64,000 bases of DNA from Streptomyces sp. NBC_01463 (GTDB taxonomy: Bacteria; Actinomycetota; Actinomycetes; Streptomycetales; Streptomycetaceae). Within the stretch, counting starts at the first letter, position 1. Each line of letters opens with the position of its first letter. The notes under the pieces are model-generated. The model had not been told where the DNA came from. It saw only the letters and a program-made list of their open reading frames with translations, and searched no databases. Below are positions 51,108-55,270 of this stretch, in pieces. The position numbers and the translations under genes are program-made. Location of the stretch: contig CP109468.1 in NCBI GenBank assembly GCA_036227345.1, positions 2,914,001 to 2,978,000 on the forward strand, read 5' to 3'.

Positions 51108-51776
51108 TCAGGCCGTTTCGAGCGGGAACGCGCCCCGGTGGCCGGTGCCCGCGCCCGCGACCGGGCGCGGCTCGAACTCCCGGCAGCTCCAGACCTCCTG
51201 GACGAATCCGCTGCGCCGGTCCCACAGGTCGAGGACGTCGTCCTCACCGTCCGCCCCGCGGTAGGCCTCCTTCGCGCCCCGGAAGCAGGCGAGACCGCCG
51301 GACAGCCCGCGGCCGGGCGCCGGGAAGTAGTCCGAGAAGGCGCACGCGATACAGGTCCGGAGCCGGATCCCGGGCGGCAGCGCCCGCTGGATGGTGGCGA
51401 GCGCGGCCCCGAAGTCGCTCTCGGCCCGGTGCGACCGGAAGGCCGCTCCGCCGTACCGCAGCTCCAGATAGAGATACGGATCGGGCCTGCGCAGCGACAA
51501 CAGGCAGCTCAGCGTGGCCTGGTGGACCTCACCGTCCGCGGTGACCGGGAACGGCAGGTCCCATTCCAGGACGCAGTCGTTCAGCACACCGTCCGCGAGG
51601 GCGAACATCCCGCTCTCCGGCGGCATGCCCGCCACCGGGCACAGGGCGCCGAAGCTCTCGCCCTCGAAATCGACTCCCCGGACGCGGAGGCGGAGTTGCT
51701 GTCCGTCGGTGGTGAGGATGACGGCATCGGAGCCCTGTCGGTCCCGGTACCACCCTGCCCACGACTCATCTGTCAT
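51108..51776 (-). CDS. hypothetical protein (DUF6304-like)
   Basis: 222 residues of a soluble protein with no signal peptide. I recall a Streptomyces family of this size (DUF6304) with WAGWYRDRQG at its start and a conserved central region LSLRRPDPYLYLELRYGG. It has a Cys pair (TCIACAF) but no clear catalytic motif. Identification as DUF6304 is from memory and should be treated as tentative. It stands alone between terminators. Confidence 0.7.
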   Translation of the reverse strand: MTDESWAGWYRDRQGSDAVILTTDGQQLRLRVRGVDFEGESFGALCPVAGMPPESGMFALADGVLNDCVLEWDLPFPVTADGEVHQATLSCLLSLRRPDPYLYLELRYGGAAFRSHRAESDFGAALATIQRALPPGIRLRTCIACAFSDYFPAPGRGLSGGLACFRGAKEAYRGADGEDDVLDLWDRRSGFVQEVWSCREFEPRPVAGAGTGHRGAFPLETA

Positions 51777-52273: not shown

Positions 52274-53320
52274 TCAGTGCGTCCGGCGGGTGACGAACTC
52301 CGCCAGGGCCAGCAGATCGCCCGCCGCCGAAAGGTCGGGGACGGCCCGGGACAGGTGGTGCACCGCGCGGGCCATCCGGTCCGCGGCGCAGATCTGCGCC
52401 CAGTCACGGCCGCCCGCCCGGTCCACGGCGTCGGATGCGCGGCTCACCTCGGCGGCCGTGTTCATCGGGCCCCGGTAGAGCGCGGCGAGCTCCGCCGCCG
52501 CCGGGGTGCCCGAGGTCAGCGCGGCCACCACGGGCAGCGACTTCTTGTGGGCGGAGAGGTCCGCCCCGACCGGCTTCCCGGTCTGGGAGGGGTCGCCCCA
52601 GATGCCGATCAGGTCGTCGATGAGCTGGAACGCCAGTCCGGCCTCCCGGCCGAAGCCGTCCATCGCGCCGACGGCACGTTCCTCCACGCCCGCGTAGAGC
52701 GCGCCCAGCGCGCACGCACAGCCGAGCAGGGCTCCCGTCTTGGCCGTGGCCATGGTGAGGCACTCGTCCAGCGAGACCTCGTCAGGTCCGCGCTCCTCGA
52801 AGGCGCAGTCGGCCTGCTGGCCGGCGCAGAGCTCGATGACGCAGGTGGAGAGGCGGGCCGAGGCGCGGGCCGACACGGACCGGGCGTCCTCGGCGAGGAG
52901 CCGCTGGGCCAGGGCGAGCATGGCGTCGCCCGCGATGACGGCGTCCGGGATGCCGAAGACCGTCCAGGCCGTGGCCCGGTGGCGGCGGGTGCGGTCCTCG
53001 TCGATGACGTCGTCGTGCAGCAGGGTGAAGTTGTGGGCCAGTTCGACCGCGACGGCCGCCCGCACGGCTTCTCGCGGGTCACCGCCGAGCGCCCGGGTGG
53101 CGGCCAGGACGAGCGCGGGTCTGATCGCCTTGCCGGCGCCGCCCGCGGCCGGGCTGCCGTCGGCGTGCTCCCAGCCGAAGTGGTACATCGCGACGCGCCG
53201 GATCGAGCCCGGCAGTGAGGCGACCGCGGCCCGCAGGTGCGGATCGACGAGGGTCCGGGTGTACTCCAGGAGCGCCGCGGCATCGTTGCCCTCGGTGGCG
53301 GCGGCGTCGGTACGGGTCAT
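52274..53320 (-). CDS. polyprenyl diphosphate synthase, probable encapsulin cargo
   Basis: 348 residues from ATG 53320; an in-frame GTG at 53398 would add a Pro/Gly/Ala-rich N-terminus of 26 residues. First aspartate-rich motif HDDVIDED with DDVID at 103-107. The second motif reads DDLIG (235-239) rather than DDxxD, a variant frequent in actinobacterial members. It makes all-trans prenyl diphosphates from IPP and an allylic substrate. It directly follows a family 2B encapsulin gene, the arrangement in which polyprenyl transferases are known cargo. The N-terminal flexible segment is the likely targeting part. Confidence 0.92.
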   Translation of the reverse strand: MTRTDAAATEGNDAAALLEYTRTLVDPHLRAAVASLPGSIRRVAMYHFGWEHADGSPAAGGAGKAIRPALVLAATRALGGDPREAVRAAVAVELAHNFTLLHDDVIDEDRTRRHRATAWTVFGIPDAVIAGDAMLALAQRLLAEDARSVSARASARLSTCVIELCAGQQADCAFEERGPDEVSLDECLTMATAKTGALLGCACALGALYAGVEERAVGAMDGFGREAGLAFQLIDDLIGIWGDPSQTGKPVGADLSAHKKSLPVVAALTSGTPAAAELAALYRGPMNTAAEVSRASDAVDRAGGRDWAQICAADRMARAVHHLSRAVPDLSAAGDLLALAEFVTRRTH

Positions 53321-53422
53321 GGTCAATCGGTCACCCCGGTCGTTGCCGTCCCCGGCCCCGGTGGCTGTCGCCCCGGGGCCGGGGACGTGGGTGGTCACTG
53401 TGGTGCGCCGGCTGCGGCCGAC

Positions 53423-53451
53423 GGGGCCCGGACCCGGCAGGTCCGGGCCCC
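53423..53451 (-). terminator. intercistronic hairpin between shell and cargo genes
   Basis: GGGGCCCGGACC (53423-53434) and GGTCCGGGCCCC (53440-53451) pair perfectly over 12 bp, 7 bp downstream of the shell stop codon. It has no U tract. It could attenuate cargo transcription or protect the shell mRNA 3' end. Confidence 0.6.
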
Positions 53452-53457
53452 GTGGAC

Positions 53458-54864
53458 TCACCGCCAGCGGCTGACCTCGACGTTCTCCAGGACGCCGAGG
53501 GCGTCCGGGACCAGAACGGCCGCCGAGTAGTAGGCCGTCACGAGGTAGGAGATGATCGCCTGCTCGTCGATCCCCATGAAGCGGACCGAGAGGCTGGGTT
53601 CGATCTCGTCCGGGATGCCCGTCTGCTGGAGCCCGATGACGCCCTGTTCGGCCTCGCCGGTCCTCATACAGATGATCGACGTGGTGCGGGCGTCCGTGAC
53701 CGGGATCTTGTTGGACGGGAAGATCGGGACCCCGCGCCAGGCCGGCACGTGCTGGCCGCCGACGTCCACGCTCTCCGGCACCAGGCCGCGCTTGTTGCAC
53801 TCGCGGCCGAAGGCGGCGATGGCCCTCGGGTGGGCGAGGAACAGCTTGGATCCGCGGCGGCGCGAGAGCAGTTCGTCCATGTCGTCGGGGCTGGGGGCCC
53901 CGTCGTGCGGCTGGAGCCGCTGCCCGTAGTCGCAGTTGTTGAGCAGGCCGAACTCCCGGTTGTTGATGAGCTCGTGCTCCTGGCGCTCGCGCAGCGCCTC
54001 GACCGTGAGCCGCAACTGCTGCTCGGTCTGGTTCATCGGCTGGTTGTAGAGGTCGGCGACCCTGCTGTGGACCTTCAGAACGGTCTGCGCGACGCTCAGT
54101 TCGTACTCGCGGGGCGCCGACTCGTAGTCCACGTACGTGTGCGGGACGACGGCCTCGCCGACGTGGCCCGCGGAGAGGTCGATCTCCGCCTCGCCGTAGT
54201 TGTTGGTGCGCTGGTGCGGGATGGTGAGCAGCCCCGCGAGGTGCGTGCGCAACGGCTCGGACCGCTCGGCGAGGTTGAGCACGTCGGCCCGCCGCAGGGT
54301 GAGGACCGTGCACGCCGTGACGGCGCGGGCCGTGTACTCCCAGACGGCGTCGCCCTCGATGAGGGAGTGGTCGCCGAAGTAGGCCCCGTCCGCATGGACG
54401 CCGAGCACCGTCTCGTCCCCGTACTGCCCGGTGCCGATCTTCTCGACCTTGCCGTGCGCCAGCAGGAAGACCCGGTCCGCCGCCTCCCCGGCCGTGGCCA
54501 GGAGCTGTCCGGCGGAGATGTCGCGCTGCTCGCACCGCCTGGCGAGTTCGGCGAGGGCCTCCTCGTCCCCGAAGTCCCTCAAGGCCGGAAGCTCACCGAG
54601 CTCGGCGGGGATGACCGAGACCCGGTCCCCCGTCTGTACGAAGGTCACCCGGCCGTCCCCGACCGAGTAGCTCAGCCTGCGGTTCACCCGGTATGTGCCG
54701 CCCTGCACCTGGACCCACGGCAGCATCTTCAGCAGCCACCGTGAGGTGATCTCCTGCATCTGCGGAGCGGACTTGGTGGTCGTCGCGAGGTTCCGCGCGG
54801 CTGCCGTGCCCAGACTCTGCTGCGGCGGCACCTGCGCGTTCTGAACCTCTTCACCAACGGACAT
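53458..54864 (-). CDS. eshA: family 2B encapsulin shell protein with cyclic-nucleotide-binding domain (EshA-like)
   Basis: 468 residues from ATG 54864 (GAGAGGA upstream). An N-terminal arm of about 90 residues is followed by an inserted cNMP-binding domain (95-205) with the cassette [11 protein letters not shown] at 162-172, then an HK97-type shell domain to the C-terminus. This is the EshA architecture of streptomycetes (SCO5249/EshA of S. griseus), now classed as family 2B encapsulin nanocompartments. The shell assembles around cargo, here probably the prenyl synthase encoded 137 bp downstream. The ligand of the cNMP domain is not established; cyclic nucleotide binding has been reported for EshA. 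Confidence 0.93.
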
Positions 54865-55270
54865 CTGTCGTCCTCTCGATTCATCGGCTGACCTGCAGAA
54901 GAAGCCTTTCAGCATGGAGACTCGGCACGCCATTACACAAAAGAGTGTGACTAATCGGGCTTTGGGCTGGGCACAACGCTGCGCGATGCCCGCCTCTGCG
55001 GCCCGCTGCCCTTCATGCGGGCCGTGCGGACCCAGTTGCTCCCCAGGGGGTCCCGGTGCCCGGCATCCACCACGCGGTGTCCGGCCCCGCGCCGTGGCTC
55101 GCCCAGGGCTGAACCACCCTGCGGCGCGCCCGGAATTGACCGGATCGGCTCGCACAACGCCCGAACAGGGCCCCGCAATCTCCCCGTAACTGGTCCGGGA
55201 CCGCGTCAGTCGGGTACATCGGGTACAAGCCCTGTACGGACGCACTCCCCCACGCACGAAGGAGTCGGTC
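54865..55270. promoter_or_regulatory. divergent region between encapsulin and amidase genes
   Basis: 406 bp without a credible gene. An imperfect inverted repeat, ATTACACA (54932-54939) / TGTGACTAAT (54946-54955, two extra bases), lies about 70-90 bp upstream of the encapsulin start and overlaps a likely minus-strand -10 (TAATGG). The rest contains several GGGTACA-like words near 55215. Possible regulator sites for encapsulin expression. Confidence 0.45.

Follow-up and report, generated by a model that had tools for sequence, protein, structure and literature searches.

Family 2B encapsulin shell genes most often have a polyprenyl diphosphate synthase gene as their neighbour (PMC8049743), and 900 Family 2B polyprenyl-transferase operons have been counted, 888 of them in Actinobacteria (PMC8346489). 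The encapsulin-linked transferases are described in the latter as having a disordered domain of 50-100 residues without a conserved motif. Recently described Family 2B shells are T=1 (PMC12407261). In Streptomyces coelicolor the shell gene eshA is SCO7699, which adjoins SCO7700 and SCO7701 (PMC5839063), and the EshA paralogue, EshB, is SCO5249 (PMC3878966); in S. venezuelae eshA is in an operon with the 2-methylisoborneol (2-MIB) genes (PMC6428758). We analysed a gene for such a virus-derived protein shell and a synthase gene of this kind in Streptomyces sp. NBC_01463, in a stretch of 64,000 nucleotides, called the window (contig CP109468.1, positions 2,914,001 to 2,978,000 of the forward strand), in which the two genes span positions 52274..54864. 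With a probability of about 0.7, the pair is a one-component EshB-type Family 2B operon with a self-assembling shell, a gate of the cyclic-nucleotide-binding (CNB) fold whose ligand is not a cyclic nucleotide, and a synthase of the geranylgeranyl diphosphate (GGPP) type as candidate cargo.

The shell gene runs from ATG to TGA on the minus strand (53458..54864) and encodes 468 amino acids, as stated in the initial annotation of this DNA, which had proposed a Family 2B encapsulin shell with an HK97 fold and an internal cyclic nucleotide monophosphate (cNMP)-binding domain. The proposal stands. The protein scored 770 bits against NF041163, the NCBI model for Family 2B shells (cut-off 400), its residues 217-465 matched the HK97-type, SrpI-like family PF19307 with 458 bits, and residues 114-201 matched PF00027 (cNMP_binding) with 59 bits as an insertion in the E-loop of the shell domain. 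A phmmer search of the PDB found the shells 9bhu (E 1.3e-203), 9bje (5.3e-183) and 9bix (2.2e-179), and 6x8m is also among the solved encapsulin shells that are homologous to this protein; with such an E value against 9bhu the match is no chance match. Our own AlphaFold model of the shell had a mean pLDDT (predicted local distance difference test) of 48, with about 30 in the HK97 part, and was unusable for the HK97 fold, which is therefore argued from homology to the four solved shells. Two of these, 9bje and 9bix, belong to the two-component Family 2B shell of S. lydicus. Read from alignments with them, diagnostic motif 1 of the window shell is RRRG, which resembles the RRRK of the self-assembling Enc2; unlike the S. 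lydicus pair, the window locus holds a single shell gene. A second-component shell at the locus was considered and rejected, because none was found there and the other 2B shell of this genome lies 2.67 Mb away.

As to which Streptomyces shell this is, EshA had been named in the initial annotation, and here the assignment had to be changed. Against 9bhu, the EshA-type shell of S. griseus, the other shell of the genome scored 933 bits and the window shell 680, and no 2-MIB-type cyclase stands beside the window shell; EshA was thus rejected as its identity. The other shell adjoins a 2-MIB-synthase-like cyclase that scored 498 bits against the family 2 terpene-cyclase cargo model (cut-off 400) and has GPSGLGT in its N-terminal part, where a GPxGLGT-type motif is said to occur in 2-MIB-synthase-like cyclases (PMC8346489), and this shell is taken as the EshA type. 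The neighbours of the window pair are genes for a SigB/F/G-type sigma factor, an ATPase-like anti-sigma candidate (below the Pfam cut-off), a zf-UBP protein, a Na/H exchanger, a pyridoxal phosphate enzyme and an amidase. The window shell is six genes from the sigma factor gene, and SCO5249 is numbered six from SCO5243, which is sigH. Since the neighbours fit this numbering and an EshA-type gene is present elsewhere, the window shell is called EshB type, a paralogue of EshA, with its orthology to SCO5249 resting on synteny and gene numbering. S. griseus NCTC13033 (L093) also carries an EshB-type gene, 89% identical to the window shell. The EshA type of S. griseus and the window shell share the domain plan, an HK97 fold with a CNB insert, and the N-terminal arm (N-arm), but their neighbour enzymes differ. 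The eshB promoter is up-regulated during development (PMC3878966), SCO5249 is listed among mycelium-dependent transcripts (PMC3610822), and AtrA may be a direct negative regulator of it (PMC13170358).

The next gene on the strand (52274..53320, minus) encodes a polyprenyl diphosphate synthase, as had been annotated, with both the DDVID and the DDLIG motif in its translation. Its start is best set at the ATG at 53320, which has GGTGA 10 nucleotides upstream and gives 348 amino acids. The protein scored 190 bits against PF00348 and 486 bits against NF041169, the model for family 2 encapsulin cargo polyprenyl transferases (cut-off 450), and thus, by their profile scores, shell and synthase both fall in families already named by NCBI and are of a known kind. 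The best fold matches of the synthase are 3nf2, a polyprenyl synthetase of S. coelicolor with which it shares fold and motifs at 45% identity, and then archaeal GGPP synthases. The GGPP synthase 5jfq likewise shares fold and motifs and has HNFTLVHDD leading up to and into the first Asp motif, one residue different from HNFTLLHDD in the window synthase. By the chain-length rule, an aromatic residue five positions before the first Asp motif leads to short chains. By motif the enzyme is of the geranylgeranyl type, and our best guess for its product is GGPP (C20). It is one of six polyprenyl synthases of the genome. The predicted model has a mean pLDDT of 90.8, its sole stretch below 50 is residues 1-10, and the first helix of the fold starts at residue 6; although 61 residues precede the PF00348 match, most of them are within the predicted enzyme fold. 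The pair has the gene content of the operons counted in PMC8346489, whereas in place of their 50-100-residue disordered N-terminal domains the window synthase is predicted to have about 10 disordered residues.

The two genes are commonly associated in the genus. At least one 2B shell was found at E 1e-150 in 146 of 150 Streptomyces genomes, a synthase over the NF041169 cut-off in 114, and in 111 of these 114 the synthase is directly downstream of an EshB-like shell gene on the same strand, as counted among the 121 listed shells with at least 74% identity. The remaining three are G112, with the shell on another contig, G130, whose adjacent shell is cut by the contig end, and G076, the converse case, with no shell found within 5 kb of the synthase. 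Ten of the 121 shells have no over-cut-off synthase next to them. Five of these are of EshB type: the synthase is out of frame in G082, absent in G006 and G141, a remnant in G101 and, as said, on another contig in G112. The other five, as judged from translations, stand in other contexts, G010 and G051 beside geosmin-synthase-like genes, G052 and G053 as second shells with 2-MIB-type neighbours, and G114 as a second shell by resemblance only, since its contig ends there. In three genomes (L153-L155), which have no eshB pair, 2B shell genes are directly beside geosmin-synthase-like genes. Among 80 named loci, 73 have the synthase (L132 included), three do not (L098, L137 and L145), L108 has none before its contig end, and L082, L091 and L146 are too short to show it. 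Of 198 genomes sampled across the phylum, 12 were over the shell cut-off; eight of these are from the genus of the window, its own genome included, and one of the 12, G296, has a shell without the inserted domain.

The inserted domain, searched as residues 91-215 (54220..54594, minus), was modelled with a pLDDT mostly of 77-93 as a CNB fold, and its best structure matches are cyclic-nucleotide-gated channels and 9bhu. In alignments with known binders, Trp175 takes the position of the phosphate-binding Arg. Tryptophan occupies this column in all 85 EshB-type shells, in 7/7 other 2B shells, in 5/5 further non-EshB 2B shells and in three aligned encapsulin PDB chains. In the same column, 18 non-encapsulin CNB-like domains of the phylum have Arg (10), Tyr (2) or Met (1), with five unaligned and Trp in none. 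The best non-encapsulin PDB match, 3co2, has Trp there too; this entry is titled a mutant, and we take it to be an Arg-to-Trp mutant. The domain has a mean identity to the window of only 71% and yet the Trp is invariant, which suggests a changed ligand and not decay. Control of the shell by a cNMP was implied in the initial annotation. This is not borne out: a domain with Trp where binders have the phosphate-binding Arg is unlikely to take a cyclic nucleotide as its ligand, and it has been reported that the inserted domain does not bind any cyclic nucleotide and that the binding residues diverge (PMC12407261, citing its ref. 35), though a review terms EshA cyclic AMP (cAMP)-binding (PMC6627660).

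From these results the following picture can be drawn. The two genes would be transcribed together, and the shell protein alone would assemble to a T=1, roughly 28 nm shell of the HK97 fold. The CNB-fold domain would be on the outside, over the two-fold pores, probably gating them in response to a ligand other than a cyclic nucleotide. The synthase probably condenses isopentenyl diphosphate with an allylic diphosphate up to GGPP and would be the natural candidate cargo. Because there is no loading domain in this lineage, loading, if any, would be through the short N-terminus or a folded surface.

Several points weigh against this reading. The synthase scored 365.6 bits against NF045549, the equivalog model for the GGPP synthase IdsB, which is below the cut-off of 475, and its predicted model is without a loading domain. 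The cAMP-binding label of EshA also stands against the gate as drawn. Beside intact shells the synthase is missing or broken in seven strains (G006, G141, G101, G082, L098, L137 and L145), and in these the omega of the shell is 0.10-0.24, with no relaxed constraint. The reference is the other 77 loci, of which three end before the synthase; their 63 nearest-neighbour pairs have a median of 0.16 and a range of 0.04-0.37. Prenyl transferases had been called known cargo in the initial annotation. In the literature consulted they are putative cargo, and our search found, in the text available, no experiment showing a Family 2B polyprenyl transferase loaded in its shell. Adjacency favours the synthase as cargo, and the missing loading domain and the persistence of shells without a synthase urge caution.

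The synthase could be loaded by a folded surface or by its short N-terminus, MTRTDAAATEGND, and the same may be true of xylulose kinases, in which disorder is not consistently present (PMC8346489). The tight adjacency in 111/150 genomes speaks for such loading, and letters like TEGHEAA do recur beside helix 1 in relatives. On the other hand, even close relatives differ in the N-terminus, with 12-13 or about 40 residues, and the synthase shares no motif with the tagged cargos described below, its best window having 2.4 bits on the tag matrix; this route is possible, with the odds somewhat against it. In the other large Streptomyces lineage the N-terminal extension is longer, 33-106 residues in 27 EshB-only genomes without that tag and about 26 in G045, these lengths being from start codons picked by script. 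The motif [EK]RxxPI[GAT] occurs in 9/31 extensions of that lineage (L023, L028, L029, L036, L270, L282, L288, L294 and L298), compared to a mean of 0.012 and a highest count of 1 in shuffles, but it was picked from the same related sequences in which it was counted; it is not in the window synthase. A different view would make EshB mainly a particle that is empty or has a regulatory role, such as has been suggested for EshA in the control of ppGpp, with the synthase incidental. The omega values of the seven shells, which are inside the reference range, agree with this, and according to a review adequate (p)ppGpp synthesis requires EshA (PMC6627660). However, unrelaxed omega may merely reflect recent loss of the synthase, and the conserved adjacency points to a functional link between shell and synthase; overall, a mainly empty or regulatory EshB is quite improbable.

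The most unexpected likeness in the locus concerns the N-arm of the shell. Residues 17-24 (54793..54816, minus) are SLGTAAAR, SLGT[A/S]AAR across shells, and nearly copy GLGTSAAR, the core of a tag found on a cyclase encoded elsewhere in this genome. That gene (G000:C1:8363566-8365776; L197:5564-7777, minus) is geosmin-synthase-like, encodes GPTGLGTSAAR followed by a short tail at its end, and stands without an adjoining shell gene; its product scored 1183 bits against the NCBIfam model for family 2 cargo terpene cyclases, just below the cut-off of 1200. The GPxGLGT motif has been proposed as a targeting sequence (PMC8346489). On a matrix built from 17 tag variants, the best window of the shell was the N-arm with 15.1 bits, the next had -1.8, and 2 of 3000 shuffled shells reached 15.1. 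Of 92 shells, 86 have SLGT[A/S]AAR within the first 60 residues and six a near variant, and in 90 the top tag-like window is within residues 5-45. When likely coding frames around 80 loci were scanned (215,688 residues), the N-arm score was reached 79 times, each time in a shell and never in another protein. In one S. lydicus shell the N-arm has been seen either ordered or absent, and it alters the two-fold pore (PMC12407261). We found no mention of the likeness between tag and N-arm in the available text of PMC8346489, on the tag, or PMC12407261, on the N-arm; the study behind 9bhu may have it. Cargo may thus dock by mimicry of the N-arm, and EshB may take the geosmin-synthase-like cyclase in trans.

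In its explicit form this would leave the synthase a soluble operon partner and have EshB loaded in trans with geosmin synthase, whose GPTGLGTSAAR docks at the site of the N-arm. The matrix scores and the near-cut-off cargo score favour it, and so does a genome with two 2B shells and a tagged cyclase gene that has no adjoining shell, although the EshA-type shell of that genome could be the receptor instead. A DNA pattern for GPxGLGT had four matches in the genome and four in the reversed control; two of the former are terpene cyclases and two look unrelated. Among 53 genomes whose sole 2B shell is of EshB type and whose geosmin-synthase tail is readable (from a set of 54, less G106 with a partial gene and never including G130 with its cut shell), the tag is present in 24 (23 identified by a pattern that was fitted to these tails, and the degenerate G034), and its positions are better conserved (0.88) than the flanks (0.63 upstream, 0.41 downstream; n=23, many of them close relatives). 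Against this, 29/53 lack the tag despite having EshB, G121 is tagged although no 2B shell was found in it at E 1e-150, and the tag of the 2-MIB-type cyclase of the own genome, GLGTAGLR, has only 9.3 bits on the same matrix. In G010, G051 and G043 a 2B shell is beside a geosmin-synthase-like gene, and the tag may be retained from such an arrangement. Moreover, the tag and the length of the synthase N-extension each change just twice on the shell tree, which contains no independent pair that is informative. The tag split is therefore not independent evidence, and loading of geosmin synthase in trans is somewhat doubtful. For the same reason a reciprocal loss of tag and N-extension was rejected, in spite of raw medians of 12 and 43 residues (22 tagged and 27 tag-less genomes; for G127 the script picked a wrong start, giving 469 in place of 12, and G002, G021 and G045 were not in the set of the script). 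Counter-examples to it are G002 and G021, with tag and long extension, and G075, with tag and 40 residues. Unlikely as a whole is the combination in which the tag GLGTSAAR competes for the N-arm groove so that loading is tied to pore closure, EshB serves geosmin synthase in trans, the GGPP-type synthase next to it is without a loading tail, by loss or from the outset, and the Trp-bearing insert senses a non-nucleotide ligand, possibly a terpenoid.

Two features flank the pair. A conserved 25-bp element, AGTCACACTCTTTTGTGTAATGGCG (54928..54952, minus), is 63 nucleotides 5' of the shell start codon, and at least 18 of its 25 positions match in all 79 sequences compared (the window and 78 of the 80 named loci). 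Scans for sigma-70 promoters and terminators found nothing, the element fits no recognized promoter type, and its 18-base core has no second copy in the genome with up to three mismatches that would point to a regulon; it is perhaps a promoter or operator. Downstream of the synthase, after a gap of about 500 bp, is a DUF6304 gene (51108..51776, minus), which is probably outside the shell-synthase transcript. Judged from translations, a DUF6304-like gene is also near the shell in L137 and L149. In L137, where the locus has no synthase, the conserved amidase gene and eshB are separated by genes for a flavohaemoglobin-like protein and an Rrf2-like regulator, again as judged from translation.

What this analysis adds for the EshB-type operon preferred here is the corrected identity of the shell, the missing loading domain of the synthase, the invariant Trp and the likeness of N-arm and tag. 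The initial annotation had asked which ligand controls the shell and which prenyl chain is made, and both questions have been sharpened rather than solved. The locus bears on whether a neighbouring synthase is cargo, on what has replaced cAMP in the inserted domain and on whether the tag is a copy of the N-arm. If the tag does replace the N-arm, this would couple cargo loading to the state of the pore, and copying of the N-arm would amount to a rule of loading for Family 2B shells in general and would provide a simple engineering tag.

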